In this document: piece by piece, positions 8,311 to 54,005 of the stretch
Layout: every line of letters begins with the position of its first letter
Numbering within the stretch: position 1 is the stretch's first letter
The notes under the pieces: model-generated
The model's input: only the letters and a program-made list of their open reading frames with translations
The model's database searches: none
What the model was told of the DNA's origin: nothing
Origin: Bacteroidia bacterium
Lineage (GTDB): Bacteria > Bacteroidota > Bacteroidia > Cytophagales > JAAEPT01
NCBI GenBank assembly: GCA_030431525.1
Contig: JAUIJC010000031.1
Location: 1 to 54,445, forward strand
Direction of reading: 5' to 3'
DNA: 54,445 nt
Position numbers and translations under genes: made by a program

Positions 8311-8318
8311 TACAGTGC

Positions 8319-8460
8319 ACAGTTATCAGTTATCAGTTAACAGCCGACCAAGGCGGAAGCGTGAGTATCAATATTCACACATAACTGAGGTTTCTATTGA
8401 AACCCACTCCCCATAACTGACAAGTGATAACTGTTAACTGATCCCTGTTAACTGATAAAC
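8319..8460. repeat. Inverted repeat of TTATCAG/TTAACAG words
   Basis: The left block at about 8319-8345 is built of quasi-tandem 7-bp words (TTATCAG, TTAACAG). The right block at 8425-8459 contains their reverse complements (CTGTTAACTGAT). The spacer holds a third partial word (ATAACTGAG). The same vocabulary recurs at 28446-28513 with 28624-28660, and in altered form at 39578-39624. It fills the fadA-fadE gap. Confidence 0.75.
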
Positions 8461-8469
8461 TTTCCGCTT

Positions 8470-10257
8470 ATGTCCAACTCCACCCAAAACCACGTAAAAG
8501 GCGGGCAATTTTTAATCACGCCCGGTCATGCTTCTTCCACCTTCATCCCTGAGGAATGGACTGAAGAACAAAAAATGATGGCCCAAACCTGTCAGGATTT
8601 TCTTGAAAAGGAAGTCTCTCCACATTTGGAGCGCATAGACTCCATGGAAGAAGGCCTGATGCCAAGCATCTTGGATAAAGCCGGAGAAATGGGATTGCTT
8701 TCCATTTCTATTCCGGAAAAATACCAAGGCTTTGGCGGTGATTTCAACACCAGCCTCCTCACTACTGAGGTATTGGGTGGCGGACATTCATTCTCTGTAG
8801 CCTTGGCTGCACACACAGGGATTGGTACACTTCCAATTCTCTACTTTGGCAATGATGCCCAAAAGGAGAAATACCTCCCAAAACTGGCTTCTGGAGAATG
8901 GAAAGCCAGCTATTGCTTGACCGAGCCTGATTCTGGTTCGGATGCTTTGGCTGCCAAAACCAAAGCGGTACTCAGCGCTGATGGCTCCCACTATGTCCTT
9001 AACGGGCAAAAAATGTGGATTACCAACGCAGGCTTTGCCGATGTATTTATCGTCTTCGCACAAATCGACGGTGATAAATTCACAGGCTTCATCATCGAAA
9101 AGGGCACTGAAGGTCTCACCCTCGGTAACGAGGAGAAGAAGATGGGCATCAAGGGTTCCTCTACCCGTCAGGTCTTCCTGTCGGACTGCAAGGTTCCAAA
9201 AGAAAACGTGCTTGGCAATATTGGTGAAGGACACAAAATTGCCTTCAATATTTTGAACATTGGCCGAATTAAGTTGGCCGCCGCAACCTTAGGTGCTGCA
9301 AAACAAGTGGCCAAGAATGCGGTGAAATATGCTAACGAGCGTTCACAGTTCAAAACCAAGATTTCCACCTTTGGCGCTATCCAACAAAAGTTGGCGCAGC
9401 AAGCCATCCGTATTTATGTGTTGGAATCGGCCCTCTATCGCGCATCTGACCAAATCCGCCAATTGGAAGAAAAGCTCCATTCGGAAGGCATGAGCTATGA
9501 AGCAGCCTTGTTGCAAGCCGCACAAGAGTTTGCCATCGAATGCGCGCTTCTGAAAGTAGCGGGATCTGAAATGTTGGATTTCGTGGTGGACGAAGGCGTT
9601 CAAATCTTCGGTGGTTATGGCTTCTCGGCAGACTTCCCGATGGATCGCTCCTACCGTGATTCGCGTATCAACCGCATCTTTGAGGGTACCAACGAGATCA
9701 ACCGCCTCTTGATGCTGGACATGTACTTCAAGAAAGCCATGAAAGGCGAGTTGGATTTGTTAGGCCCAGCCAAAGCGGTTCAACAGGAGCTCATGGGCAT
9801 TCCAGACTTTGGTGATGCACCTACCAGCCCGATTGAAATTGCCGAGAAGCAAATCGAAAGCCTGAAGAAAGCGGCCTTGATGGTAGCGGGCGCGGCCGCT
9901 CAGAAGTTTGGACCAAAACTTTCCCATGAGCAGGAAATCTTGATGAACTGCGCCGACATGATCACCGAGTTGTATCAAGCTGAATCGGCATTGCTCCGCA
10001 CCAAAAAACTCATGGAAAGCAAAGGCGAGGACGCGGTGAAAATCCAACTGGATATGACCATGACCTTCCTTTATGACGCCACCGAGAAGGTTGCAAAAGC
10101 TGGCAAGGACGCCATTGCCTCATTTGCTGAGGGTGATGAGAAGCGCATGATGCTTCTTGGCCTCAAGCGTTTCACCAAGATTGACCCAGTCAACGTGAAA
10201 GAAGCTCGACGCCGAATTGCCAAGGTGCTTATTGACGCTAACGATTTTGTTTTCTAA
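8470..10257 (+). CDS. fadE: Acyl-CoA dehydrogenase
   Basis: A 595-residue FAD-dependent acyl-CoA dehydrogenase, the first step of beta-oxidation. The flavin-contact motif YCLTEPDSGSDA is near residue 150, the substrate loop KMWITNAGFADVF near 180, GGYGFSADFPMDRSYRD near 380, and the catalytic base is probably Glu405 in RIFEGTNEINR. A C-terminal extension of about 160 residues, rich in helix, matches the long FadE-type dehydrogenases such as B. subtilis FadE rather than short-chain enzymes of about 380 residues. Electrons would pass to ETF, not encoded here. A terminator follows at 10281, closing the fad cluster. Confidence 0.94.
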   Translation: MSNSTQNHVKGGQFLITPGHASSTFIPEEWTEEQKMMAQTCQDFLEKEVSPHLERIDSMEEGLMPSILDKAGEMGLLSISIPEKYQGFGGDFNTSLLTTEVLGGGHSFSVALAAHTGIGTLPILYFGNDAQKEKYLPKLASGEWKASYCLTEPDSGSDALAAKTKAVLSADGSHYVLNGQKMWITNAGFADVFIVFAQIDGDKFTGFIIEKGTEGLTLGNEEKKMGIKGSSTRQVFLSDCKVPKENVLGNIGEGHKIAFNILNIGRIKLAAATLGAAKQVAKNAVKYANERSQFKTKISTFGAIQQKLAQQAIRIYVLESALYRASDQIRQLEEKLHSEGMSYEAALLQAAQEFAIECALLKVAGSEMLDFVVDEGVQIFGGYGFSADFPMDRSYRDSRINRIFEGTNEINRLLMLDMYFKKAMKGELDLLGPAKAVQQELMGIPDFGDAPTSPIEIAEKQIESLKKAALMVAGAAAQKFGPKLSHEQEILMNCADMITELYQAESALLRTKKLMESKGEDAVKIQLDMTMTFLYDATEKVAKAGKDAIASFAEGDEKRMMLLGLKRFTKIDPVNVKEARRRIAKVLIDANDFVF

Positions 10258-10280
10258 TAGATTACAAAAACCTACACCAA

Positions 10281-10311
10281 GCCACTGACTTAAGGGTCAG
10301 TGGCTTTTTTA
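10281..10311 (+). terminator. Rho-independent terminator after fadE
   Basis: Stem GCCACTGAC/GTCAGTGGC followed by six T residues, 24 bp after the fadE stop codon. Confidence 0.85.
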
Positions 10312-10360
10312 TGAAAAAAAACTTTTCAGGAGGCAACCAATCGCATTTTCAACCCTAATA

Positions 10361-10462
10361 GTTATAGGAAGCTGGGAAACAGTTCCCCCAGACTGCAGCT
10401 TCCATATCTTCCCCATTTTTTACAGCCGGTTAGTTCCCCCAGACTGACCGGCTTTTCTTTTT
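10361..10462 (+). ncRNA. Candidate small RNA with twin C-rich loops
   Basis: Two hairpins stand in a gene-free stretch. The first has stem GGAAGCTG (10367-10374) with CAGCTTCC (10396-10403). The second has stem AGCCGGT (10424-10430) with ACCGGCT (10447-10453) and is followed by TTTTCTTTTTTT, a good terminator. The stems differ completely, but both enclose the identical 15-mer AGTTCCCCCAGACTG (10381-10395 and 10432-10446). Conserved loops in unrelated stems suggest an RNA that presents the same C-rich loop twice. No clear promoter was found. It could instead be part of the leader or trailer of a flanking gene. Confidence 0.35.
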
Positions 10463-10489
10463 TTAGGAAGTCCCTCGCATAGAATCCAC

Positions 10490-10497
10490 CCTATCTT
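10490..10497 (+). promoter_or_regulatory. Candidate -7 box upstream of the PpiD-like gene
   Basis: TATCTTTG matches the Bacteroidota -7 consensus TAnnTTTG. It lies about 145 bp before the chosen ATG and just after the candidate small RNA's terminator. No good -33 TTTG was found at the usual distance, so support is moderate. Confidence 0.4.
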
Positions 10498-10642
10498 TGT
10501 AAGAAAGTCTAAAAACTTACGGCTTTCCCCTACAAACCTTGTTTGTTTTGGGGTTTGAAGTCCTTATTTTTGGAGCCAATCTGACAGCGTGTGCGATTTT
10601 TATCATAAGAGGTCGCATTCCAACTCTTTAGTATTACGCAAA

Positions 10643-12724
10643 ATGGTCTTAAAGAAAATCCGTCAAAACACGGGACTACTTTTAGGTTTTGTGGTAATTG
10701 CCATGATCCTTTTCTTGTCCTCTGACTTCCTATTCAAACTTTTACAGCCAAAACCACAAGGTGACCAAGTCATCGGTGAAATTGCTGGAAAAGACATTCC
10801 ACTCAATGAGTTTCAACAGGCTTTCAACGATGTGACTTTTGGACAGAATGTTCCAGAAGCACAAATGAAGCGATTCCGCGACCAAGCTTGGGATCAGTTG
10901 GTATTTGACAATGCTTACGCCCAAGAATTTGAGGCTTTGGGTATTGACTTGACCAAGGACGAAACCAAAGACATGGTGAACGGTATCACCAAACTCCCTG
11001 CTTTCGCCACGGCACCTGTTGATCAAATCAATCAGTTTATTGAGGCTGTAAACAATGGTGAGCCGGGAGCGGTTGCAAACTGGGAGGCTTTCAAGAACTT
11101 CCGTCTCCGGGAGAAGTACAACAACTTGTTCAGCCAGTCGGTATTTGTTTCTACTGAGCAAGCCAAACAAAAGTACGCTACAGAGAAATCTACAGCTTCT
11201 TTTGACTACCTCTACGTTCCTTTCTACATGATTCCTGACAGTTTGGTAGATGTTTCTGATGAGAAACTTAATGCCTACTTGAAGGATCATCAAGATGAAT
11301 TCGAAGGTAGCGAAGGACGTACCATCAAATTCGTTCGCTTTGATGTAGCTCCAACCACTAAGGACAGGGCTGAAATTCAAAAAGAAGTGAACGAAACTGC
11401 TGAGCAGTTCAAAGCAACGCCAAACACTGTTTCTTTTGCTGCTTCTAATTCAGACAATCCATCTTCTGCTTTCCCACAGCCTTACGGTTCATTGCCAGCA
11501 GATTTGCAGCAAAAGGCCAAGCCTGCTGAATTGACTGAAGGTGCATTCTTCGGCCCTTACCAACAAGGTAACGTGTACAAAATGTACAAGGTAGCCAAGG
11601 TTGAAACCATTGACTCCCTCGAATCAGTACAAGCCAGCCACATCCTTTTCAAAACAGACGGCAAGGATGCTGACGAAGTTCGTGAAACTGCTGAAGGTGT
11701 GTTGAAGCGCGTTAAAGATGGCGAGGACTTCGGAACGCTTGCTGCTGAATTCGGTGAGGATGGAACTCGTGCCAACGGCGGTAGCCTTGGTGAATTTGGT
11801 CGCGGCCAAATGGTGAAGCCTTTTGAAGAGGCTTGTTTCGATGCCAAAAAAGAAGGTCTTCTTCCTGAGTTGGTAGAAACTCAGTTTGGTTTCCACATCA
11901 TCAAAATCGACCGTGTAGCTGGTCCACAAACACAGTTCACTGTAGCTTCCATTGAAAAGCAAGTGGCACCAAGCTCCCAGACGTATAAAGAAATCCGTCG
12001 TAAGGCGCGCAACTTCGCCACCAAAGCGAAAAAGGCTAATGGCGTTGAAGGATTTGAGGCTGCTGCAAAAGAAGATAGCTTGGTTATCACTTCTGCCGAG
12101 AACATCGCTCCTGGCACTGAGTTCGTAAGCGGACTTGGCAAGGTTCGTTCCCTCGTTTCTTGGGCTTACAATGACGAGCGTGAGATTGGCGAAGTTTCCT
12201 CTGTTGAGGATCTTGACAACTACGGTGGTTATGTTGTAGCTGTCCTTTCAGGAAAGCAAAGCAAGGACGAAGTAAGCTTAGACGGTGTTCGTGGTAAGGT
12301 TGAACAAGCGGTTCGCAAGGAGCAGAAAGGTGCTTTGATTCAGGAAACTCTTGCTGCTGCTGAGGGTGACTTGGACGCTAAGGTTAACGCCTTCAATGAA
12401 AAGCACGGTGCTGGAAAAGCCAGCAAGCGTACTGCTTCTAACGTAGCACTTTCTTCTAACAATGTTAGTGGAGCAGGCAACGAGCCAGCTGTAATTGGTA
12501 CTGCCTTTGGATTGGACGCTGACGAGACCAGTGACATCATCATTGGTGACAACGGTGTATTCATCATCCAATTGAAAGCTAAAGAGGACGCTCAGGAAGT
12601 AGCTGACTACTCCAACACTAAGGAGAGCTTGGAAAGCCAGCAAATGGGTAGCCTCGCTACGAAAGCAAAACGCGCTATCGAAGAGGGTGCTGAAATCAAG
12701 GACTTCCGCTACAAGTTCTTCTAA
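10643..12724 (+). CDS. PpiD-like membrane-anchored peptidyl-prolyl isomerase
   Basis: About 693 residues. An N-terminal signal-anchor (NTGLLLGFVVIAMILFLSSD) is followed by a SurA/PpiD N-domain and one parvulin rotamase domain at about residues 328-430 (ASHILF, GGSLGEFGRGQMVKPFEEA, TQFGFHIIKID). A long alpha-rich C-terminal region follows, ending DFRYKFF. It probably assists folding of envelope proteins in the periplasm while tethered to the inner membrane. ATG 10643 is preferred to the upstream in-frame start at 10589 because MVLKKIRQ directly precedes the anchor. Codon use is strongly biased (GCT, GGT, AAC, GAC), suggesting high expression. A strong terminator follows. Confidence 0.9.
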   Translation: MVLKKIRQNTGLLLGFVVIAMILFLSSDFLFKLLQPKPQGDQVIGEIAGKDIPLNEFQQAFNDVTFGQNVPEAQMKRFRDQAWDQLVFDNAYAQEFEALGIDLTKDETKDMVNGITKLPAFATAPVDQINQFIEAVNNGEPGAVANWEAFKNFRLREKYNNLFSQSVFVSTEQAKQKYATEKSTASFDYLYVPFYMIPDSLVDVSDEKLNAYLKDHQDEFEGSEGRTIKFVRFDVAPTTKDRAEIQKEVNETAEQFKATPNTVSFAASNSDNPSSAFPQPYGSLPADLQQKAKPAELTEGAFFGPYQQGNVYKMYKVAKVETIDSLESVQASHILFKTDGKDADEVRETAEGVLKRVKDGEDFGTLAAEFGEDGTRANGGSLGEFGRGQMVKPFEEACFDAKKEGLLPELVETQFGFHIIKIDRVAGPQTQFTVASIEKQVAPSSQTYKEIRRKARNFATKAKKANGVEGFEAAAKEDSLVITSAENIAPGTEFVSGLGKVRSLVSWAYNDEREIGEVSSVEDLDNYGGYVVAVLSGKQSKDEVSLDGVRGKVEQAVRKEQKGALIQETLAAAEGDLDAKVNAFNEKHGAGKASKRTASNVALSSNNVSGAGNEPAVIGTAFGLDADETSDIIIGDNGVFIIQLKAKEDAQEVADYSNTKESLESQQMGSLATKAKRAIEEGAEIKDFRYKFF

Positions 12725-41800: not shown

Positions 41801-41811
41801 CATTGTGACGT

Positions 41812-41959: not shown

Positions 41960-42655
41960 ATGACACAGATTCTCATTGCCGACGACGATCCGGATATTCT
42001 TGATCTGTTGGAATACAACCTCTCTAAGGAAGGCTGGGAAGTGCATACGGCCAGCAACGGTCAGGAGGCATTAGATAAAGCACAAGACCTAAACCCCGAC
42101 TTAGTCATCTTGGACATCATGATGCCTGAGTACGACGGTGTAGAAGTCTGCGAAAAACTGCGAAATAAGGACAAGTTCAAGGACACCTTGATCATTTTCC
42201 TGACAGCACGTACCGAGGACTTCACTCAAATCGCCTGTTATGAATCAGGTGGTGACGACTACATCGTCAAGCCCATCAAGCCAAAGGTTTTGGTCAGCCG
42301 TCTGAAAGCTATCCTTCGTCGCAAAGTTGGCCGTCAGTACCAAGATGAAAATAACGTCATCACCTTCGGCGACCTCAGCATCGACATCGAACAGCACGAG
42401 GTTAAGAAAGAAGGCGAAACCGTCACCTTGGCCAAAAAAGAGTTTGATCTACTCGTCCTCCTTGTTTCCAAACCAGGAAAGCTCTTTTCCCGCGAGGAAA
42501 TTTTCAACAAGGTCTGGGGCATCGATAACGCCATCGGCGACCGCACCATCGATGTGCATATCAGAAAGCTTCGCTCGAAGCTCGGTATGAGCTACATCAA
42601 AACTGTCAAAGGCGTAGGCTACAAGCTCGACCCTTTGGAAACTGCAGAATTCTAA
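41960..42655 (+). CDS. PhoB/OmpR-family response regulator
   Basis: A 231-residue two-component regulator. The receiver domain has the acidic pocket Asp8-Asp10, phosphoacceptor Asp52 (LVILDIMMPEYDG), Thr82 and Lys104 (VKPIKP). The C-terminal winged helix ends IRKLRSKLGMSYIKTVKGVGYKL, the OmpR/PhoB effector domain. No histidine kinase gene is adjacent, so the partner is elsewhere. OmpR/PhoB-family proteins bind direct repeats with 11-bp spacing, and such repeats precede two downstream genes and perhaps this one. Calling it PhoB is an inference. Confidence 0.92.
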   Translation: MTQILIADDDPDILDLLEYNLSKEGWEVHTASNGQEALDKAQDLNPDLVILDIMMPEYDGVEVCEKLRNKDKFKDTLIIFLTARTEDFTQIACYESGGDDYIVKPIKPKVLVSRLKAILRRKVGRQYQDENNVITFGDLSIDIEQHEVKKEGETVTLAKKEFDLLVLLVSKPGKLFSREEIFNKVWGIDNAIGDRTIDVHIRKLRSKLGMSYIKTVKGVGYKLDPLETAEF

Positions 42656-42724: not shown

Positions 42725-44023
42725 ATGAAACGCATTGTTACGGCGTTGATTGGCTTCCTATTGTTCAGCCTCAACGTTCAAGCCGACAACTGGAACTGGG
42801 GTCCAAACGCCGGAAAGGCACAAATCCAGTGGAAATACTTTTCGAACATGAGCAAGGCCAAGCGTTATGACGAGGCCCTAATCCCATGCCGTTGGCTATT
42901 GGCCAATGCTCCACAACTCCACGACGCACTCTACAGCAAAGCCATCACCGCTTACCACAAAGTGGAGAAAGGCACAAAAGACGCTACACGCAAAGCAGAG
43001 CTTCAAGACACCATCCTCCTACTTTATGATTTGAGGATTCAGCACTTTGGCAAAGAAGCTTCCAACCTCGACAGTAAAGGCAATTACGCCTACTATTACT
43101 TGGCTGACCGCCAAGGCACCAACACTGAACTCTACCAGCTTTACAGCAAAATCTATGAGCTCAATGGTGACAAAATGAACACCACCAGCACCTACTACCT
43201 CATGAAAACCGCATGTGAGGAAAAGAAAGCTGGAAAGTTACAAGATGACGACATCTTGGATTGGGCTGGAAAACTTAATGAGGTGTTGGAACATCAGGCT
43301 GAGAAAGTAGATGCCGAGGACACCAAAGAAGCCGAGCGCATTGAAAAAATGCATAAGCTCATTGAAAAGGAACTTTCTGCAAATGTGGAAATCACTTGCG
43401 AAATCATCGATTCGAAATATGGCGCTGACTTTAAGGCTTCGCCAAATGAGGAGTCTGCCAAGAAGATTTTCCGCTACTCATTGTCCCAGCGTTGCTATAG
43501 CAATGAGCTGTTCATCGAGGCGACAACATTCTTGAATAATGCTGAGCCTTCTTCTAAGTATCATAAATACTTGGCGAAAGCCCACAAGAAACTCGGTCAG
43601 CTAGAGGAGGCACATGCCAACTACCTAAAGGCCGCTGAATTGGAAGAGGAAACTTCTAAGAAAGCTGGTTTCTATTTGGACATGGCCAACATCAGTTCCA
43701 GTCGTGGTCAATACGCACAAGCCCGCACGGAAGCCAAACAAGCTTTGGCGGCTGATCCATCCAACGCCAAACAAGTATACACTTTCATCGGTGACCTCTA
43801 TTACAGCAGCACTTCCTGTGAGGGCAATGACCCAATCAAAAAGTCATTGCACTACTTGGCTGCCTATGAGATGTACCAAAAGGCTGGAAACCAAAAAGGG
43901 ATGACCAAAGCAAAAAGTCACTTCCCTACAACAGTGGAAATCTTTGAGCGCAACAAGAAAGAAGGTGAAAAACTTTCGACTGGATGCTGGATTAACGAAA
44001 CGGTAACATTGCGCAAAAAGTGA
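42725..44023 (+). CDS. Secreted TPR-repeat protein
   Basis: About 432 residues. A signal peptide (MKRIVTALIGFLLFSLNVQA) is followed by TPR-like helical repeats; the clearest is KYLAKAHKKLGQLEEAHANYLKAAELEEETSKKAGFYLDMANISSSRGQYAQARTEA split over residues 290-345. Periplasmic TPR proteins accompany some TonB/ExbBD systems, and this one lies at the head of the cluster. The exact role is unknown. A long palindromic terminator follows. Confidence 0.85.
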   Translation: MKRIVTALIGFLLFSLNVQADNWNWGPNAGKAQIQWKYFSNMSKAKRYDEALIPCRWLLANAPQLHDALYSKAITAYHKVEKGTKDATRKAELQDTILLLYDLRIQHFGKEASNLDSKGNYAYYYLADRQGTNTELYQLYSKIYELNGDKMNTTSTYYLMKTACEEKKAGKLQDDDILDWAGKLNEVLEHQAEKVDAEDTKEAERIEKMHKLIEKELSANVEITCEIIDSKYGADFKASPNEESAKKIFRYSLSQRCYSNELFIEATTFLNNAEPSSKYHKYLAKAHKKLGQLEEAHANYLKAAELEEETSKKAGFYLDMANISSSRGQYAQARTEAKQALAADPSNAKQVYTFIGDLYYSSTSCEGNDPIKKSLHYLAAYEMYQKAGNQKGMTKAKSHFPTTVEIFERNKKEGEKLSTGCWINETVTLRKK

Positions 44024-44073
44024 TTTTCCCACATCGCTTTACCTAAGTAATTAAAGCGTTAAAATAACACCAT

Positions 44074-44117
44074 AAAAAAGCGGGGCTTATGCAACATTGC
44101 ATAAGCCCCGCTTTTTT
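44074..44117. terminator. Long symmetrical terminator
   Basis: A 21-bp palindromic stem (arms 44074-44094 and 44097-44117) with core GCGGGGCTTATGCAA, A-run on one side and T-run on the other. It isolates the TPR gene from the lipoprotein promoter. Confidence 0.92.
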
Positions 44118-44154: not shown

Positions 44155-44242
44155 TTAACAAACCGTCAATCTCACCCATCCAAACCTTATAGAAAACATA
44201 AACAACACTTAACAAACCAATAACACTACCCCCCTACTTTTG
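44155..44242 (+). promoter_or_regulatory. PHO-box-like promoter of the surface lipoprotein
   Basis: TTAACA (44209-44214) and ATAACA (44220-44225) are direct repeats with 11-bp spacing, with a weaker ATAAAC at 44198. A further TTAACAAACC word lies at 44155. The -7 box TACTTTTG (44235-44242) begins 15 bp after the start of the last repeat, so the repeats occupy the -33 region. This is the layout of PhoB/PhoP-type activation. The same geometry is found at 45910-45965. Confidence 0.65.
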
Positions 44243-44286
44243 TAGTGTAAGATTTAAGCAACTCAACAACCAAACTTATTTTAGTA

Positions 44287-45699
44287 ATGAAAAATCTTAT
44301 CAAAATGTCTCTCTACGCTGGCTTCATGGCCTCCGTAGCTTTTGGTACAGTTTCTTGTAGTGAAGATGACTCAACAACTACCAACCCTGGGTCCAAAGGA
44401 ACCATTTATACAGAAACGGTTTCATACTTGGGGGAGGACAGCACTAAGAAACTTGTTCAGGTCGAAGTAAAAGACTTGGGCGAAGGAACAGGAACTGTCA
44501 CTTGGACAAAAGACAAGGTTTACATCCTTAGTGGACGTGTGTTTGTTAACGAGGGTCAGACATTGACGATCGAGCCAGGTACTATCATCAAAGGACAAGG
44601 TGGCCAGGGTGACAACGCTTCTGCTTTGATCGTTGCTCGTGGTGCAAAAATCATGGCTGAGGGCACGAAAGCTGAGCCAATCATCTTCACTTCTGTTAAC
44701 GACAACACTGTCCGTTATGCTGATGATGTAAACACTCTTCAGAGTGAGCTTTTGAGTCAAGACCTTCGCGGTCTTTGGGGTGGTTTGATCGTTCTTGGTA
44801 AAGCCCAATTGAACTCTGCTCCAGGTGAAACTGCAATCGAAGGTATCCCAACTTCTGAGTCTCGTGGCCTTTACGGTGGTACTGACGACGCTGACAACTC
44901 AGGTTCTTTGAAGTACATCTCTATCCGTCACGGTGGTACTAACATCGGTGCTGATAACGAAATCAACGGCTTGACTTTGGGTGGTGTCGGTTCTGGAACT
45001 ACTATCGAAAACATCGAAGTTGTAGCTAACGCTGATGACGGTGTTGAATTCTTCGGTGGTACTGCACAAATCAAGCACTTGGTAGTTGCTTACTGTGGTG
45101 ATGACGCTATCGACTACGACGAAGGTTACCGTGGTAACGGTCAGTTCTGGTTGGCCGTTTTGGATAGTGATGGTGACCACGGTGGTGAGCACGACGGTGG
45201 TACTACTCCTGAAGATGGTTCTCCTTATGCACACCCAATCATCTCTAACGTTACTTACATCGGTAACGGATCAAGCCGTACAATGATCCTCCGCGACAAC
45301 GCTGGTGGTGAATACCATAACTCTGTATTCTACAACTTCGGTAAAGGTATCGACGTAGAGGACCTTGATTCTGGCGAAGACAGCAAGGCTCGTTACGATG
45401 CTGGCGACTTGAAATTCGAGAACAACTTGTTCTTCGAAGTTGAGGGCGGCACTAACTTGATCAGCGTTGTTGACAAAGACAAAGCTGTACAGAGCGAATT
45501 GGACCTTGGTTCTAACGCTGTAGCTTCTGCAATGCCATTCACTTCTGCTGAAAGCCCAATGGCTTCTGGCGACGCTGCTTCTGGCGCAGTAATGCCATCT
45601 GGTTCTTTCTTCACTTCCGTTGACTACAAAGGTGCTTTCGGATCTGACAACTGGGCTGCTGATTGGACTTACATGAGCCAAAAAGGTTTGTTGAAATAA
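44287..45699 (+). CDS. Surface-exposed beta-helix lipoprotein
   Basis: A 470-residue protein. The signal peptide ends with a lipobox at Cys24, followed by SEDDS, a match to the Bacteroidota lipoprotein export signal (S then acidic residues) that sends lipoproteins to the cell surface. The body looks like a right-handed parallel beta-helix (GQTLTIEPGTIIKG, LWGGLIVLGKAQL, TIENIEVVANADDGVEFFGG) with acidic, His-rich loops (LDSDGDHGGEHDGG) suited to metal or anion binding. Codon use is extreme (GCT, GGT, AAC, GAC), implying very high expression. Its promoter matches that of the TonB receptor downstream, so they probably act as a pair. The substrate is unknown; phosphate compounds are inferred from the promoters only. 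Confidence 0.87.
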   Translation: MKNLIKMSLYAGFMASVAFGTVSCSEDDSTTTNPGSKGTIYTETVSYLGEDSTKKLVQVEVKDLGEGTGTVTWTKDKVYILSGRVFVNEGQTLTIEPGTIIKGQGGQGDNASALIVARGAKIMAEGTKAEPIIFTSVNDNTVRYADDVNTLQSELLSQDLRGLWGGLIVLGKAQLNSAPGETAIEGIPTSESRGLYGGTDDADNSGSLKYISIRHGGTNIGADNEINGLTLGGVGSGTTIENIEVVANADDGVEFFGGTAQIKHLVVAYCGDDAIDYDEGYRGNGQFWLAVLDSDGDHGGEHDGGTTPEDGSPYAHPIISNVTYIGNGSSRTMILRDNAGGEYHNSVFYNFGKGIDVEDLDSGEDSKARYDAGDLKFENNLFFEVEGGTNLISVVDKDKAVQSELDLGSNAVASAMPFTSAESPMASGDAASGAVMPSGSFFTSVDYKGAFGSDNWAADWTYMSQKGLLK

Positions 45700-45720
45700 T
45701 CTCTGTTTTCCCAGAGTTTC

Positions 45721-45757
45721 AGCACCCCTATCTCTTCGGAGTAGGGGTGCTTTTTTT
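45721..45757 (+). terminator. Terminator after surface lipoprotein
   Basis: 10-bp stem AGCACCCCTA/TAGGGGTGCT followed by seven T residues. Confidence 0.92.
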
Positions 45758-45909
45758 GTTTTCTATTTTTTCTCCTACAACAACATTTTTTCACGCCTAC
45801 TAATACATCACAAAAACTCCAATTCTTTAGATTTAAATACCTTCCAAAATCCTGTCATTTTCCCTCCAAAAATCACCTTAACTAAAAAACATTACCCCCT
45901 ATCACACAA

Positions 45910-45965
45910 TTAACATAAGGATAACATTAAGCTGATTACCGATTAACAGTGCATTAAGACTTTTG
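45910..45965 (+). promoter_or_regulatory. PHO-box-like promoter of the TonB receptor
   Basis: Half-sites TTAACA (45910), ATAACA (45921), degenerate CTGATT (45932), TTAACA (45943) and TTAAGA (45954), all on an 11-bp grid. The -7-like GACTTTTG (45958-45965) starts 15 bp after the 45943 site, the same spacing as at the lipoprotein promoter, and both boxes continue with TA. The leader to the ATG at 45988 is about 20 bp. Confidence 0.7.
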
Positions 45966-45987: not shown

Positions 45988-48984
45988 ATGAACCTGAGAC
46001 ACTTACTCAGTCTTACTCTCCTCCTGGTTTGGGGAACTTCTTTTGCACAAACGGGCAAAATCGAAGGAAAAGTTACAGGCAGCGCCGATGAGCCACTCGC
46101 CTGGTTGGAAGTTGGAATCGAGGGGACCTACTACGGAGCTTATACCGATGACAACGGACAATACTTTATTGAAGGCATTGAGCCTGGAACCTACACTGTA
46201 AAGGTGGCTGACATGGTTTCTGGGACAACTACTTCACAAGAAAATGTGGTGGTTACTGCTGGGCAAACCACTACAGTGGATTTGAAGTTGGTCGAAACAG
46301 TAGAAACCGACCAAGTAGATTTTGCCATTGAATGGGAACCAGATCCTGTTACAGAGGAAGCTGCACTTGAGGAAAAAATGAACAACGACAATGTTGTTGA
46401 AGAACAATCAAGTGAGGAAATGAAATCCAAAGGAGCATCGAAAGCTTCAGATGCCGTAAAATCCATCTCTGGTGTTTCCATTGTTAACGGAAAGTATGCC
46501 TACATCCGCGGCCTTAGCGATCGTTACAGCAAGACCCTGCTTAACGGTTCTGAAGTCCCAGGCATGGACCCTAACCGAAATGCTGTTGCCTTGGACATCT
46601 TCCCGAGCAGCTATATCAGCAACATTACTGTTGTTAAGACCTACACGCCTGACTTGCCTGCCGACTACTCTGGTGGATTGATTGACATCCACACCCAAGA
46701 GTACCCAGACTCGCTGACCATTAAGCTCAGCTTGGGAGCCACCTATAACTCCCAAAGTAGCTTCAATAATAACTTCAGGACTTTTAACACAAACCCTGGA
46801 CAAGGAGGTGGTGAGAGCAGCGTGGGGAACGGAATGGACTGGACAGTTTTGGGCTTCAACAACAGCTCCCAAAACCTGCCAACAGAAGCAGTAAACAAGG
46901 TACAAGATGGAACCTACCCAGGCTTTGGTTTTGGAAGCACACAAGAGGAGATGGTTTCTCTTAGCAAATCCTTCAACAAGGTGATGGTGCCGACAACTGG
47001 CCTGTCCGGAATGGACCACAAGCTGAACTTCACGATTGGTAACAAAATCGCCTTAACTCCTGACTCTGTAGCAGAACAAAAAGTTTACGGTTACTTCTTC
47101 GGGGTTAACTACCGCCGGAGCTTCTCCCACTTCGAGGATGGAGAGCGCAACATTTACACCCTTAACGGTAACATTGACGATAAGTCAGAGCTCAACCTTG
47201 CCCAATACAACAACCTGTCAACAAGTAAGGATAACGTCCTTTTGGGCGCCTATTGGAACAATGTTCTTCAGCTTAACACTCGCAACCGCATTGGTTTGAA
47301 CTTGATTCATAACCAAACGGGATCGACTACTGCAAGCTATGCCGAAGGCCAAAAGGACACTGAGTTGGATTGGCAGATGCGTACTACCCTTATCGACTAC
47401 ACACAACGTTCATTGAGCTCTGCACAGCTCTACGGTAAACACGAGCACTATATCGGTCAGGACTCTGCCAACATTGGTAAGAAACTCGAAATCGACTGGA
47501 TTCAGTCAGCCACCTTGGCAAGTCAGTACCAGCCTGACACTCGTGTTTGGAGGGACGCCTTCCAAGAGACTGATTCAACGCGCTACTACGAGGTTCGTCC
47601 ATCAGCATTTGGTACACCAACCCGTTTCTCCCGTGAGATGAACGAATGGAATGCGGACAGCAAAATCAACTTCTCTTTGCCATTCACCTTCGGTCCTGAC
47701 AGCGCCCAAAAAACCTTGACAATGAAAGCTGGTCTTTCCAACACTATGAAGTCAAGGGAGTATTCTGAGTTGCGTTTCGATTACAGCATCGCATCAGGCA
47801 GCTATAACGGAAATGATATTGAAGGTAGCATCTCGGATGAAAACATGAATCCTACGAGTTCATCAGAAAACCCAAATGTATTCATCCAAAACAACACGGC
47901 TCCAGGTAACACCTACTCTGCCACGCAACGCGTAACTGCTGGTTACTTGATGGGTTCTTACAACCTCACACCTCGCTTGGACTTTGTAGGTGGTGCACGT
48001 GTGGAAAACACGGACATCTTCGTGGAGAGTGCTGACCCAACCAAAGACAAGGGAGATTTGGCACAGACAGATGTAATGCCTTCTGCCAACTTCATCTACT
48101 CCATCTGGAAAGACAAAGCTGTTCGCTCCAAGTTGGACACTAACGATTTTGATTACCGCAACATGAAGTTGCGCATGTCTTACAACATGACTTTGGCTCG
48201 TCCAACCTTCCGTGAGTTGGCGCCATTCGCAGCGGACGACTTCTTCTTGAAAGCGACCATCGTTGGTAACCCGAACCTTGAGATCACAAAAATCCACAAC
48301 CTTGACCTCCGCTGGGAGCTTTACCCACGTGCTGGTGAAATCATCTCGGTTTCTGCCTTCTACAAGCACTTCTTCAACCCGATTGAAGTACGCTACGCAG
48401 CTAAAGCACAAAACAGGGAGTTCACTTGGGAGAACAGCGACGAGGCTCAGCTCTACGGTGTGGAGTTCGAATACCGCAAGAAATTGGACTTCATCACTCC
48501 TGCGTTGAAAAACTTCAAGATCGGAACAAACATCACCCTGTCTCAATCCCTCATCGAGCTTAGCCCTGAAGAACTGGAGAAGATTCAGTCGATTGACCCA
48601 TACCGCGAAGACACGCGCTCCATGTTCGGTCAGTCACCATACTTGATCAACGCCATTGCTGAATACAAGAACGATTCACTGGGCCTCAACATGAACTTCA
48701 CTTACAACATCTTCGGAGAGCGCCTTGCCATCGTGAACATCGACGGTACACCAAACATCTACGAGCAGCCATACGGCGACTTGAACTTCAACTTGATGAA
48801 GAAGTTTGGCGAGCGCATCTCGGTCAGCTTCCGTGCCAAGAACATCTTGAACCCAACCATCAAAAGCGTGTACAAATTCCAAGGGGATGCAGCCGCTTAT
48901 GAAAAATTTGAGGACACAGAATACATCTTCTCCTCGAACAAGCGTGGACGCCGATTCTCATTGTCATTCGGCTACACCTTCTAA
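45988..48984 (+). CDS. TonB-dependent receptor with carboxypeptidase-like N-domain
   Basis: A 998-residue outer-membrane receptor. A signal peptide (LLSLTLLLVWGTSFA) is followed by a carboxypeptidase-regulatory-like domain (about 23-105), an acidic linker (about 108-145), a plug (ASDAVKSISGVSIVNGKYAY, then IRGLSDRYSKTLLNGSEVPG, and VVKTYTPDLPADYSGGLIDI) and a large barrel ending RRFSLSFGYTF. It belongs to the receptor class with a DRYSKTxLNG plug, not SusC, and no SusD follows. The nearby beta-helix lipoprotein may play the SusD-like role. TonB complex genes follow directly, beginning 75 bp downstream. The shared promoter layout suggests co-induction. Confidence 0.93.
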   Translation: MNLRHLLSLTLLLVWGTSFAQTGKIEGKVTGSADEPLAWLEVGIEGTYYGAYTDDNGQYFIEGIEPGTYTVKVADMVSGTTTSQENVVVTAGQTTTVDLKLVETVETDQVDFAIEWEPDPVTEEAALEEKMNNDNVVEEQSSEEMKSKGASKASDAVKSISGVSIVNGKYAYIRGLSDRYSKTLLNGSEVPGMDPNRNAVALDIFPSSYISNITVVKTYTPDLPADYSGGLIDIHTQEYPDSLTIKLSLGATYNSQSSFNNNFRTFNTNPGQGGGESSVGNGMDWTVLGFNNSSQNLPTEAVNKVQDGTYPGFGFGSTQEEMVSLSKSFNKVMVPTTGLSGMDHKLNFTIGNKIALTPDSVAEQKVYGYFFGVNYRRSFSHFEDGERNIYTLNGNIDDKSELNLAQYNNLSTSKDNVLLGAYWNNVLQLNTRNRIGLNLIHNQTGSTTASYAEGQKDTELDWQMRTTLIDYTQRSLSSAQLYGKHEHYIGQDSANIGKKLEIDWIQSATLASQYQPDTRVWRDAFQETDSTRYYEVRPSAFGTPTRFSREMNEWNADSKINFSLPFTFGPDSAQKTLTMKAGLSNTMKSREYSELRFDYSIASGSYNGNDIEGSISDENMNPTSSSENPNVFIQNNTAPGNTYSATQRVTAGYLMGSYNLTPRLDFVGGARVENTDIFVESADPTKDKGDLAQTDVMPSANFIYSIWKDKAVRSKLDTNDFDYRNMKLRMSYNMTLARPTFRELAPFAADDFFLKATIVGNPNLEITKIHNLDLRWELYPRAGEIISVSAFYKHFFNPIEVRYAAKAQNREFTWENSDEAQLYGVEFEYRKKLDFITPALKNFKIGTNITLSQSLIELSPEELEKIQSIDPYREDTRSMFGQSPYLINAIAEYKNDSLGLNMNFTYNIFGERLAIVNIDGTPNIYEQPYGDLNFNLMKKFGERISVSFRAKNILNPTIKSVYKFQGDAAAYEKFEDTEYIFSSNKRGRRFSLSFGYTF

Positions 48985-49058: not shown

Positions 49059-50030
49059 ATGCGCAAATTCATCCTAACCCTCTCTGCTGTTGCCGGCCTT
49101 GCTTTCGGCAACATCGCCATGGCTAACCAAGAAGCTCCTGCCAAGGCTGACTCTGCAAAAGTGGAAACCGTAGCCAAAGCTGATTCAGCTGCCGCTACTA
49201 CCGACTCTGCTGCAACCGTTGCTGCTGCCGCTGGCGATTCTGCCACCACAGCCGGAGGGAATACTGAAACTGCTGCTACTGAAGAAGAAGCTGCTGTTGC
49301 TCCAGCTGCCACTGAGCCAACCGCTCATGAGTTGATCAAGAAGTATATCATCGACGGTGGTGTCGAGTTCATGAGCATCGTATTGGTGTGTTTGATCATC
49401 GGTTTGACTGTAGCCGTTGAGCGTGTTATCACCTTGAACATGGCTTCTACCAACGTTCGCAAATTGTTGGACAGCATCAAGGATTCTGTTCGCAAAGGTG
49501 AGTACACGGCTGCCAAAGAAGTTTGTGTAAACACTCGTGGCCCAGTTGCAGGCGTTTTGGCCCAAGGCCTTATCCGCGCTGAGGAAGGAACTACCGAGGA
49601 CGTAAAAGACGCTGTTGAGTCTTACGGTTCTGCCGAGATGCTCCGTTTGGAGAAAGGCATGAGCTGGATTGGCTTGTTCATCCAGTTGGCTCCAATGTTC
49701 GGATTCATGGGTACAGTAATCGGTATGATCATGGCCTTCGACGGCATCGCGAAAACTGGTGAGTCCAAAATGAGCCAGATCGGTGGTGACATTAAAGTTG
49801 CCCTTTTGACCACTGTTGCTGGTCTTGTGGTAGCCATCATCCTTCAGTTCTTCCAGAACTACTTGAACTCCAAAATCGACTCCTTGAACGAGCAGATGGA
49901 AACTGCTAACAACCAGTTCATGGACATGTTCGTGGTGGGAAAGCGCCTTCGCAAAGAGGAAAAAAAAGTGATCAAGAAGGCTGAGAAAATCATGGCCTCT
50001 ACTGAGGAAAATCCTTCTGAGACTGTCTGA
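49059..50030 (+). CDS. ExbB/TolQ-family proton channel with periplasmic extension
   Basis: About 323 residues. It opens with a cleavable-looking signal peptide (FILTLSAVAGLAFGNIAMA), then an Ala/Thr/Glu-rich segment of about 70 residues, and three transmembrane helices (EFMSIVLVCLIIGLTVAVE, GLFIQLAPMFGFMGTVIGMIMAF, VALLTTVAGLVVAIILQFF). The ExbB/TolQ/MotA core converts proton flow into TonB motion. The N-terminal extension recalls long ExbBs of some Gram-negatives. ATG 49059 starts the signal peptide. Codon use is highly biased, like the surface lipoprotein. Confidence 0.93.
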   Translation: MRKFILTLSAVAGLAFGNIAMANQEAPAKADSAKVETVAKADSAAATTDSAATVAAAAGDSATTAGGNTETAATEEEAAVAPAATEPTAHELIKKYIIDGGVEFMSIVLVCLIIGLTVAVERVITLNMASTNVRKLLDSIKDSVRKGEYTAAKEVCVNTRGPVAGVLAQGLIRAEEGTTEDVKDAVESYGSAEMLRLEKGMSWIGLFIQLAPMFGFMGTVIGMIMAFDGIAKTGESKMSQIGGDIKVALLTTVAGLVVAIILQFFQNYLNSKIDSLNEQMETANNQFMDMFVVGKRLRKEEKKVIKKAEKIMASTEENPSETV

Positions 50031-50665: not shown

Positions 50666-51235
50666 ATGAAACCACGTAAAAAACGCGTTCAGGAGGAGGT
50701 TAACTCCAGCTCCATGGCCGACATCGCCTTTTTGCTGCTGATCTTCTTCTTGGTTTCCACCGAGATGCCCAACGAAAAGGGCTTGAACTTCACCCTGCCG
50801 AAAAAGCAGGACAAGAATGAGGTGGAAGTTGTAGAGACCAAAATCAACAAAAGGAACGTCTTCGGAGTGATTGTGAACTCCAACAATGACGTACTCGCCA
50901 AGGAAGAGCCTGTGAAAATAGAGGACTTGCGGGCCAAAGCCATTGCCTTCATCACGAATGAAGGTAAGGACGAGAACCTGTCGGATGACCCAAGCAAGGC
51001 CATCATCACCCTGAGGATTGACCGCGGTACCAAGTACCAAACCTATATCGAAGTCCAAGACGCATTGTTAGGGGCTTACAACAAGATTTGGGCGGACTAC
51101 CTCGGCATGAGCGAGCAGCGCTTCTTGGCCTTGGACGACAAGAACCACGAGCATGTGGCCATGAAGAGCCGCGCACGCAAAGCCTTCCCGTTCCTATTGT
51201 CTAAAATGGAGCCTAACGACTTCGGCAACTACTAA
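50666..51235 (+). CDS. ExbD/TolR-family protein
   Basis: A 189-residue protein with one transmembrane helix (SMADIAFLLLIFFLVSTEMP) carrying the essential Asp19, and a periplasmic domain (LNFTLPKKQDKNEVEV onward). ExbD works with ExbB in proton-driven TonB energisation. First of two ExbDs. The second starts 4 bp downstream. Confidence 0.93.
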   Translation: MKPRKKRVQEEVNSSSMADIAFLLLIFFLVSTEMPNEKGLNFTLPKKQDKNEVEVVETKINKRNVFGVIVNSNNDVLAKEEPVKIEDLRAKAIAFITNEGKDENLSDDPSKAIITLRIDRGTKYQTYIEVQDALLGAYNKIWADYLGMSEQRFLALDDKNHEHVAMKSRARKAFPFLLSKMEPNDFGNY

Positions 51236-51239
51236 GCAA

Positions 51240-51713
51240 ATGGGAAAATTCAGAACTAAAAAGAAAGGCGGCGAAGGCATTCCAACCTCTGCCCTACCTG
51301 ATATCATCTTCATCCTTCTCTTCTTCTTTATGGTAGTAACCAAAATGAAGAAGCAGGAGAAAATGGTGGACACCCACATTCCTGAGGCCACTCAAGTGGT
51401 GAAAAAGAATGAGGCCCTCCAGACCATCGAGCTTTACATCGGTGTGCCAAAGGACAAAGGAGCTTTCGGTGACCAGCCTGTTATTCAGGCCAACGATCGC
51501 TTCATCACCCCGAACGGCATTCGCCAGTTCATGGCCGAAGAGCGCGGAAAGTTGCCGATCGATAAGCAGAGCCCATCAAACATCCAAGTGGCGATCATCG
51601 CCGACGATGAGGTGGACATGGGTAAGATCAACGATATCGAGAAAATCCTAAAGGACATCGGCTTCCGCAAGATTTTCTACAAGGCTGCTAAGAATCACCA
51701 AGCATCACTTTAA
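51240..51713 (+). CDS. ExbD/TolR-family protein
   Basis: A 157-residue second ExbD. TM helix ALPDIIFILLFFFMVVTKMK with Asp21. The periplasmic part is shorter than in the first. Two different ExbDs beside one ExbB suggest a heteromeric ExbD pair. Confidence 0.93.
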   Translation: MGKFRTKKKGGEGIPTSALPDIIFILLFFFMVVTKMKKQEKMVDTHIPEATQVVKKNEALQTIELYIGVPKDKGAFGDQPVIQANDRFITPNGIRQFMAEERGKLPIDKQSPSNIQVAIIADDEVDMGKINDIEKILKDIGFRKIFYKAAKNHQASL

Positions 51714-52306: not shown

Positions 52307-53122
52307 ATGGAACTTGTTTATTCATCCCTAATTCTGGGTGGCCTGACCATTGTTGCGGTCTTGCTCTTTAAGCACGGACTGGTGGCCAAAAAGGCTATGG
52401 GGGTAGCCTCGGCCACCGCATCCGACTTTGACGGTATCCTGCTTAAGAAAAACCCAGAGGTTGACATCCACAGAACAAGGCTTATCACCTTGGCCGTAGG
52501 CGCAGGCATCTCCATGTTCTTCGCCTTCAAACTGGTGACTTGGGCCACTCCGGAAGAAGTATTGCCACCACCACCGCCACCAGAGGCGAGTGAAATGGTG
52601 ACCATGGATATCCCTGAGATTGATTTTGAGGAGCCGGAACCAGAGCCGGAGCCAGAACCACCAAAACCAAAGGTTCAGAAACTAACACCTACAGAAGACG
52701 AGGTGGAGGAAGAAGACCTTATGGAGGAGGAAATTGAAGACGAAATCGACTTCGGAGAGCCGGAACCAGAGCCGGAACCAGAGCCTGAAACAGAGCCGGA
52801 ACCACCAATGACCGTGGACTTTGCTGACGTTCAAGCAGAATTCAACGGCGGTGTCCCTGCCCTTCGCCAGTTCTTGGCCTCCCACATCAACGTGGACTTG
52901 GTAAAAGCCACTGGCGCTCGCGGAATGGTTGTTATCCAATACGAAGTGAACGTGGACGGACGCATTCAAAACGTGAAAGTCCTCAAGTCACTTCACCCTA
53001 AGGTTGACCAAGAAGTCATGCGCGTGTTTAAGACCATGCCACGATGGAAACCAGCAAGCCTGCAAGGCAAACCTGTAATTCAGCGTCGTAAGATGCCGAT
53101 TCCGGTAGGACCGAGGAAATAA
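52307..53122 (+). CDS. Energy transducer TonB with two membrane helices
   Basis: A 271-residue TonB. There are two hydrophobic segments, residues about 5-21 and 60-78, where most TonBs have one. Then follow a PPPPPP run, EPEPEPEP linkers and a C-terminal TonB domain (RGMVVIQYEVNVDGRIQNVKV, then PRWKPASLQGKPV). It transmits energy to TonB-dependent receptors. A 53136 terminator follows, separating the second TonB. Confidence 0.92.
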   Translation: MELVYSSLILGGLTIVAVLLFKHGLVAKKAMGVASATASDFDGILLKKNPEVDIHRTRLITLAVGAGISMFFAFKLVTWATPEEVLPPPPPPEASEMVTMDIPEIDFEEPEPEPEPEPPKPKVQKLTPTEDEVEEEDLMEEEIEDEIDFGEPEPEPEPEPETEPEPPMTVDFADVQAEFNGGVPALRQFLASHINVDLVKATGARGMVVIQYEVNVDGRIQNVKVLKSLHPKVDQEVMRVFKTMPRWKPASLQGKPVIQRRKMPIPVGPRK

Positions 53123-53135
53123 GTAAACTTTTGAC

Positions 53136-53170
53136 AACAGCCATTTGGACATCCAAATGGCTGTTTTTGT
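53136..53170 (+). terminator. Terminator between the two tonB genes
   Basis: Perfect 14-bp arms AACAGCCATTTGGA and TCCAAATGGCTGTT, then TTTTTGTTT. The second tonB therefore needs its own promoter. Confidence 0.9.
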
Positions 53171-53255
53171 TTAAACCACTTTTAGGAAATCATCACCAAA
53201 TCGCTACCCCAAGCTTACCATAGAATTTCTTAACCCTCCATAATTTTTCAACACA

Positions 53256-54005
53256 ATGAAAAACCAATTGAACAAAGAACAAGAGCTACAGGCCTTTGAA
53301 GAACAGCTTCAAAAACAAAGTCCAGCCGCTAACATCCACAAGTCCCGTTTTTCCAAACTCAGCATCGGACTTGGGCTGTCTGTCCTATTGGCCTACCAAG
53401 CGGTCACTTGGAAAACCGAGGCTGCCACATTCTCGCCAAACCATGAGACCGTCGAAAATGGGTTAGAATGGGTTGATATGAACATTCCTGAAATCATCGA
53501 AGAACAGCCCGAACCTGAAAAACGCGAGGAGCAAAAGCCTCCAAAAGTCCAAATCCTCACTCCCGATGACTGTGAGGATTGTGATGACCCTATCCTAGAT
53601 TTAAATCCAGATGATACCATCTCATTTACTTTCACACCAGATATACCGCCAGTTGATGACCCAATTGACTCCCCTGACCCACTCATCCCTGTAGACTTCG
53701 CGGAAATACCAGCTTCCTTTATTGGCGGAAACAACGCTTTTCGTCAGTACTTAGCCTCTCATATCAACACAAATTTGGTAAAAGCGACAGGAGCCCGCGG
53801 AATGGTGGTCATCTACTACGAGGTGAACATCGACGGCAGCATCCAAAATGTGAAAACCATCAAGTCCCTTCATCCTCGCGTTGACCAAGAAATCATGCGG
53901 GTCTTTAAAAGCATGCCCCGCTGGAAGCCCGCTAGCACACAAGGAAAGCTGGTGGTTCAACGTCGTCAATTGCCGATTCCGGTAGGACCGAGAATAAGAA
54001 ATTAA
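53256..54005 (+). CDS. Energy transducer TonB paralogue
   Basis: A 249-residue TonB with a single helix (LSIGLGLSVLLAYQAVTW). The C-terminal domain is nearly the same as in the preceding gene (NLVKATGARGMVVIYYEVN, MRVFKSMPRWKPAS, LPIPVGPR). The linker differs entirely: not EP repeats but Asp/Pro-rich with DDCEDCDDP. The first TM of the preceding TonB is missing. It is a tandem duplication in which linker and membrane parts have diverged, perhaps to serve a different ExbB or receptor. Confidence 0.92.
   Translation: MKNQLNKEQELQAFEEQLQKQSPAANIHKSRFSKLSIGLGLSVLLAYQAVTWKTEAATFSPNHETVENGLEWVDMNIPEIIEEQPEPEKREEQKPPKVQILTPDDCEDCDDPILDLNPDDTISFTFTPDIPPVDDPIDSPDPLIPVDFAEIPASFIGGNNAFRQYLASHINTNLVKATGARGMVVIYYEVNIDGSIQNVKTIKSLHPRVDQEIMRVFKSMPRWKPASTQGKLVVQRRQLPIPVGPRIRN

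Follow-up and report, generated by a model that had tools for sequence, protein, structure and literature searches.

The locus considered here lies in a 54,445-nucleotide stretch of DNA from a Bacteroidia bacterium of the Cytophagales (NCBI GenBank assembly GCA_030431525.1, contig JAUIJC010000031.1, positions 1 to 54,445, forward strand), called the window in its full length. A lipoprotein gene and a gene for a TonB-dependent receptor follow there a gene for a PhoB-like response regulator, and short TTAACA-type repeats stand before each of the two. The question raised by this arrangement is what the repeats are, which protein reads them and which signal it transmits. The two sets of repeats are quite probably PHO boxes of a Bacteroidota PhoB-type regulator, lying in place of the -33 element and placing both genes under phosphate-starvation control, as far as can be judged from the sequence.

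Half-sites in phase with a -7-type box

An earlier note on this DNA had described half-sites and a -7-type box at both promoters, and on re-reading the sequence all its words and positions proved exact (Table 1). The distance of 15 bp from half-site to box was found twice, from 44220 to 44235 and from 45943 to 45958. In the receptor promoter the -26 position (45932) is degenerate, and the pair at 45910 and 45921 starts 48 and 37 bp upstream of the box, i.e., at 15+33 and 15+22 bp, and is thus also in phase. All five half-sites of the two promoters obey a single rule, 15+11k bp before the box. The TTAAGA at 45954, which the note had counted as a further half-site, is probably none, since it overlaps the box and the columns 4 bp before the box have no TTAACA-like preference in 41 promoters, which were selected for having in-phase arrays. 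TTAAC-like columns, not TTG, occupy -26 in the same promoters, where the TTG of a -33 element would be expected; this agrees with the proposal that the array may replace that element.

The exact pattern TTAACA-N5-WTAACA has four copies in the 4,236,503-base genome, two of them at these promoters, and the reversed control pattern has none. Strong pairs (at least 11 of 12 letters) number three in the window, all at the two promoters. Sixty first-order Markov simulations of the window gave 0.32 strong pairs on average and two at most, and an array with an in-phase box in none. A position matrix trained on other genomes scored 26.5 and 22.9 at the two promoters and no more than 8.1 in the rest of the window. 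The 8.1 belongs to positions 43989-44051, the 3' end of a TPR gene, where TTAACG and GTAACA stand 11 bp apart, probably by chance. Another exact match in the genome (C25:23593), roughly 500 bp upstream of an aconitase gene, was rejected as fortuitous; it has no in-phase box and a matrix score of at most -8.5.

Recurrence in homologous promoters and in the genome

Homologues of the lipoprotein were detected in 35 of 38 relatives (36 of the 39 genomes searched, with the own genome) and at 67 more loci from a genome collection, most of them in records titled as Bacteroidota. Among 96 further lipoprotein loci, 81 have a receptor match, at most 1 kb away in 70. The lipoprotein was also seen in records titled Verrucomicrobia, Marinimicrobia, Kofleriaceae, Colwellia, Thalassotalea and Halieaceae (L079, L080, L084, L085, L087, L090, L094-L097, L104, L105), with a receptor match within the locus that is sometimes non-adjacent.

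Half-site pairs with at least 10 of 12 matching letters were counted in 157 upstream regions, comprising 93 of lipoprotein homologues, 62 of receptor homologues and the two of the window; these regions are partially independent, 43 pairs among them being alignable over at least 120 bp. A spacing of 11 bp was found for 120 pairs in 66 of the regions. Spacings of 22 and 33 bp gave 73 and 54 pairs, and every other spacing from 6 to 35 bp between 10 and 33. For the phase, NNNNTTTG was taken as a box if the preceding T, the preceding A or both were in place. The half-site-to-box distances peak at 15, 26, 37, 48 and 59 bp (11, 26, 34, 32 and 7 cases, respectively), and 116 of the 149 distances between 4 and 70 bp equal 4 modulo 11, where several half-sites can share one box. 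When the first box per region is taken, 38 of the 51 regions with an array and a box are in phase, about 5 being expected, and 36 of 49 remain without the window's own two. Eight control words produced no such peak; their highest class was 14 of 47, for CTTT, which overlaps the box, and TGTT had 6 of 23 in the in-phase class. Strict arrays were also sought on both strands of 1.73 Mb (L042-L108). Before lipoprotein, receptor or regulator genes 24 of 28 are in phase; nine others lie elsewhere, six of them in phase, and one of these six precedes the L074 lipoprotein gene.

Some genes behind or near such arrays deserve mention. Two small proteins, L070:4851-5207 and L072:12369-12728, are encoded behind in-phase arrays and have in common a stretch like GKVxDxxTGEALAGVKV. 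Directly after the receptor gene of L042, the frame 7952-11458 encodes a protein that ends in a type IX secretion system tail and has a match, below the cut-off, to an ExeM-like nuclease, which would fit phosphorus scavenging from DNA.

To find targets genome-wide, a fixed pattern limited to half-sites at -26 and -15 was weak (11 matches against 5 for the reversed control), because most arrays lie at -48, -37 and -26, and a full-length model, R1, was used instead. It was built from 37 promoters of other genomes chosen for in-phase arrays, with the window excluded, and its alignment is almost gapless; the L049 window and the second box of L071 were left out, and the L078 window was kept though one turn off. 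The E-values of R1 are rough (short calibration), and its hit counts are lower bounds, since 150 of 1062 first-look candidates were scored in the own genome and 137 first-look candidates per genome in the search of the relatives.

The best hit in the own genome is C9:16038-16096 (30.2 bits, E 2.2e-6), before a gene for a phosphate-selective porin (Porin_O_P, a family with three matches in this genome). TTAACA, TTAACA and TTAACT stand there at -48, -37 and -26 before TACATTTG, 289 bp from the porin start. The lipoprotein promoter (21.7 bits, E 0.0011) and the receptor promoter (18.6 bits, E 0.011) rank second and third, so that hits are not scattered at random as the earlier note had considered possible. 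The fourth hit (18.4 bits, E 0.012) precedes a lectin-like gene on C61 and the fifth an unknown gene on C46 (15.7 bits, E 0.08), followed by at least ten weaker ones; a weak array (13.1 bits, E 0.57) also belongs to a second TonB receptor gene, on C36. As weaker candidate targets may be listed C61:1406-1461 (lectin-domain protein), C46:24823-24879 (unknown 471-codon frame), C3:59548-59606 (dCache-HAMP protein) and C36:88871-88928 (second TonB receptor). No array was found near a second lipoprotein copy at C47:19560, where the best matrix score is 0.5.

With E up to 0.01, R1 marks at least 56 places in at least 22 of the 39 genomes, two of them in the own genome (at least 21 of 38 without it). 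Of the 54 hits in relatives, seven belong to the training set and were disregarded; none of the others matches more than 40 bases of a training window. The remaining 47 listed hits were sorted by the author from Pfam names, a sorting without formal control. Nine precede a lipoprotein gene or the receptor gene paired with one, and three precede other receptor-like genes; ten are of phosphate or known phosphate-starvation kinds, four belong to choice-of-anchor I proteins, and 21 are unassigned or unrelated. The ten comprise PstS (one), places beside pst genes in G016 (two), PHO4 (one), a PhoX-like gene (one), metallophosphoesterases (two), a MauG-like gene (one) and glycosyltransferases (two, both genes more than 350 bp from their hits). 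The low-phosphate Table 1 for Flavobacterium johnsoniae likewise includes a MauG-like protein, the PlcP phosphoesterase and a glycosyltransferase, the last of another Pfam family (PMC8115612). The choice-of-anchor I domain proteins (PF22494) lie under hits in four genomes (L181, L183, L174, L210), and DUF2490 proteins in two (L173, and L209 beside pst genes in G016).

The features of the window are collected in Table 1. Neither Pfam nor NCBIfam has a family for the lipoprotein. The receptor reaches 184 bits with TIGR01782, below the cut-off of 310, and of the two TonB-like genes the first (52307-53122) is above and the second (53256-54005) below the cut-off of TIGR01352.

Table 1. Promoter elements and genes around the two arrays, in window coordinates.
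Feature	Position	Strand	Remark
PhoB-like response regulator (receiver and winged helix), proposed activator	41960..42655	+	Response_reg, Trans_reg_C
TPR-repeat protein between regulator and lipoprotein genes	42725..44023	+	TPR matches only
Hairpin then T-run, probable terminator before lipoprotein promoter	44080..44117	+	read by eye
Half-site TTAACA	44209..44214	+	lipoprotein promoter, PHO-box-like, 26 bp before -7-type box
Half-site ATAACA	44220..44225	+	lipoprotein promoter, 15 bp before box
-7-type box TACTTTTG (TAnnTTTG)	44235..44242	+	lipoprotein promoter
Lipoprotein, 470 aa, ElpS/FII-like by context	44287..45699	+	homologues and receptor neighbourhood
Half-site TTAACA	45910..45915	+	receptor promoter, 48 bp before box
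Half-site ATAACA	45921..45926	+	receptor promoter, 37 bp before box
Half-site TTAACA	45943..45948	+	receptor promoter, 15 bp before box
TTAAGA, overlaps box	45954..45959	+	receptor promoter; probably no functional half-site
-7-type box GACTTTTG	45958..45965	+	receptor promoter
TonB-dependent receptor, CarboxypepD-like N-terminal domain	45988..48984	+	PF00593, PF07715, PF13620
ExbB/TolQ-type proton channel, likely energiser	49059..50030	+	PF01618
Two ExbD genes, 50666-51235 and 51240-51713	50666..51713	+	PF02472
Two TonB-like genes, 52307-53122 and 53256-54005	52307..54005	+	TIGR01352

The regulator, its signal and the competing explanations

The regulator encoded in the window combines, by Pfam, a receiver with an OmpR-type winged helix, as is expected of PhoB. 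It is the sole full-length protein of the OmpR/PhoB type found in the genome search, the other 22 matches ending by residue 161 of the 231 of the query, and this supports its suggested role as activator of both promoters. The winged-helix stretch RT-x-DVHIRK is invariant in the regulator of the window and seven homologues. Such homologues, 49-56% identical, are encoded immediately before the lipoprotein gene, and divergently from it, in L042, L043, L046, L050, L072 and L107, and in-phase arrays precede the regulator gene in L043 and L107. In L042 the regulator gene is adjoined by a gene for a PhoR-like kinase, which is below the curated PhoR cut-offs. No kinase gene is adjacent to the regulator gene of the window; the best PhoR-like candidate in this genome is an orphan with HisKA and HATPase_c domains at C17:114575-115558, 38% identical to the L042 kinase (213 bits, the next match having 114.8).

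PstS has no match in the own genome (99.97% estimated completeness), PstC merely one of 19.6 bits, and PhoU a single match below the cut-off. A PstSCAB-PhoU set for phosphate sensing was accordingly not found, PstA and PstB having been outside the search, and hits before pstS and phoU, which the earlier note had asked for, are not to be expected in this organism. This is then a genome of 4.2 Mb with a single full-length OmpR/PhoB-type regulator found and neither PstS nor a convincing PstC detected.

A mechanism may be proposed from these data. When phosphate is scarce, a PhoR-type kinase, possibly the orphan mentioned above, would phosphorylate the regulator, which would occupy two to four TTAACA-like half-sites in head-to-tail order, each 11 bp corresponding to one helical turn. 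The bound regulator would hold RNA polymerase on a TAnnTTTG-like box that has no good -33 element. As the nearest half-site lies at 15 or 15+11k bp, the activator would always meet the polymerase from the same side of the DNA, and this tolerance for whole turns speaks for an activator contacting the polymerase from one face. An outer-membrane pair for phosphate acquisition, the ElpS/FII-like lipoprotein and the TonB-dependent receptor, would thereby be switched on, and the phosphate-selective porin elsewhere in the genome probably as well.

Several findings weigh against this reading. Of the 157 upstream regions, 91 have no array by the criterion applied, and in a further 15 the array comes without a box; some of the array-less regions need no promoter, because their gene is second in an operon. 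The closest lipoprotein orthologues, L013 and L014, are among those without an array, so that the expectation of phased repeats in orthologous promoters holds for many of them and fails for others. The box is loose. When both T and A of TAnnTTTG are demanded, 10 regions are left, 5 of them in phase, and the box is therefore better described as TTTG with a loose upstream half. The regulator matches PhoB models best, yet is below their curated cut-offs (TIGR02154, 218 against 296.2; NF053854, 209.6 against 270), for which reason it is called PhoB-like and not PhoB; six homologues (L042, L043, L046, L072, L098, L107) are likewise below both. Its own gene has no good array here (matrix 6.3 at 41809), and an array before a Na+/Pi-cotransporter gene on C32 is weak (12.2 bits, E 1.1) and misses the phase by one base. 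Arrays were seen in only 6 of 30 PstS-type upstream regions. Four of the six combine the array with a box in phase, but in one of the four this lies beyond the start codon, and of the remaining three regions two belong to a single genus; the 11-bp enrichment in PstS regions is slight (7 pairs against 0-6). Finally, OprP of the F. johnsoniae phoBR cluster showed no induction in low phosphate (log fold change -1.3, false discovery rate 0.25; PMC8115612), which makes a porin under an array a weaker sign of phosphate control.

Part of these findings would be accommodated if the arrays were OmpR/PhoB-type operators serving a signal other than phosphate, or phosphate together with other signals; the regulator would then be a general one of envelope or redox functions, with phosphate genes forming just a part of its targets. 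The missed PhoB cut-offs, the lack of an adjoining kinase gene, the 21 of 47 listed non-training hits that precede no gene or genes without an evident phosphate role, and the behaviour of OprP all point in this direction. The same holds for PhoP of Riemerella anatipestifer, of the same phylum and also of the OmpR type, for which DAP-seq yielded 583 peaks and a TTTAACA core and which is tied to virulence and the Bat operon, i.e., to virulence and redox rather than to phosphate (PMC9603813). TTAACA repeats alone are hence no proof of a phosphate signal. Such an explanation is nevertheless considered rather unlikely, since PstS, PHO4 and PhoX-like genes lie under model hits in relatives, and since phosphate depletion in F. 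johnsoniae raised a related TonB-dependent transporter gene (8.02) and that of the FII lipoprotein (9.91) together with the adjacent phoB (3.06, all in the transcriptome column), whereas P-responsive loci were repressed under N and Fe limitation (PMC8115612).

A regulator that, once bound, represses a promoter having an ordinary weak -33 element, or merely modulates it, would agree with the position of the half-sites, which overlie the polymerase-binding region. The exact 15+11k phasing despite a varying number of turns is, however, what an activator in touch with the polymerase would require; the TTAAC-like columns where a TTG should be and the induction of the related F. johnsoniae genes speak against this reading too, and it appears very improbable. 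Least credible of all is that the repeats are chance matches, as might be feared for short words in AT-rich intergenic DNA. This is already contradicted by the 60 simulated windows, by the 38 of 51 regions in phase, by the gap between 22.9 and 8.1 in the matrix scores and by an excess confined to spacings of 11, 22 and 33 bp. PHO boxes under phosphate control thus remain the favoured reading of the two arrays.

Relation to known systems and significance

In Bacillus subtilis, the PHO box of PhoP consists of TTAACA-type half-sites every 11 bp upstream of a sigma-A promoter, with several half-sites per promoter. The array described here differs in being tied to a Bacteroidota TAnnTTTG-like box by the 15+11k distance, and its regulator and targets are from another phylum. 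In E. coli, the Pho box replaces the -35 element. PhoB and OmpR-type domains bind 11-nucleotide direct repeats head to tail, and the E. coli Pho box has two units with the core CTGTCAT (PMC4415409), in contrast to TTAACA in up to four or more units here. Three features of a PHO box were found in the present case as well, namely direct repeats with an 11-bp period, a fixed helical phase upstream of the -10 or -7 box in place of the -35 or -33 element (with a loosely defined box), and a position before phosphate-acquisition genes, which are Porin_O_P in the own genome and PstS, PHO4 and PhoX-like genes in relatives. TAnnTTTG is the sigma-A -7 box of Flavobacterium psychrophilum and spans -12 to -5 (PMC9723704); on this scale, the half-sites would start near -27, -38, -49 and -60 and cover -33 and the upstream contacts.

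The gene order resembles the PUSIV/phoBR cluster of F. johnsoniae, where a PhoB-type regulator, a TonB-dependent transporter and a lipoprotein are also encoded side by side. OprP is part of that cluster, whereas porin and kinase are elsewhere in the genome studied here. No cis element is given in that paper, and the terms 'Pho box' and 'promoter' are absent from its main text (PMC8115612). In Caulobacter crescentus, the surface lipoprotein ElpS is produced on phosphate starvation and occurs together with the TonB-dependent receptor Cc0171; the receptor gene is expressed alike in rich and poor media (PMC2996285), whereas here both promoters have arrays. The lipoprotein of the window may be likened to ElpS and FII by gene context and the low-phosphate induction reported in those papers, not by sequence. 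PhoB of Bacteroides fragilis is required at low phosphate and binds the pst promoter, as seen by gel shift of a 512-bp fragment; in contrast to the array here, no binding motif appears in the passages of PMC3547664.

PHO boxes are already known, and what is described here is a PHO box adapted to the Bacteroidota promoter. No cis element with such geometry was found for Bacteroidota in the open-access literature searched, and other papers may hold one. The passages of the Bacteroidota PhoB and PhoP papers give the TTTAACA core for Riemerella and no 11-bp array phased to a -7 box (PMC3547664, PMC8115612, PMC9603813). A wider proposal is put forward tentatively, at somewhat less than even confidence: a Bacteroidota-wide promoter class in which a PhoB-type activator would sit at 15+11k bp before a TAnnTTTG-like box and which in this organism, where PstS and PstC were not detected, would serve an outer-membrane phosphate-starvation regulon of receptor, ElpS-like lipoprotein and phosphate porin, with phosphate sensed without PstSCAB-PhoU.

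The arrays point to phosphate control in a genome where no Pst system was found. A lack of pstS has already been published for many Flavobacterium strains, 26 of 102 having the gene (PMC8115612). The phasing rule gives the widespread, unnamed pair of lipoprotein and receptor a testable function. Bacteroidota matter in the turnover of phosphorus and carbon in soil, gut and sea, and the 15+11k rule is simple enough for predicting phosphate-starvation regulons in their genomes, those of uncultured members included.

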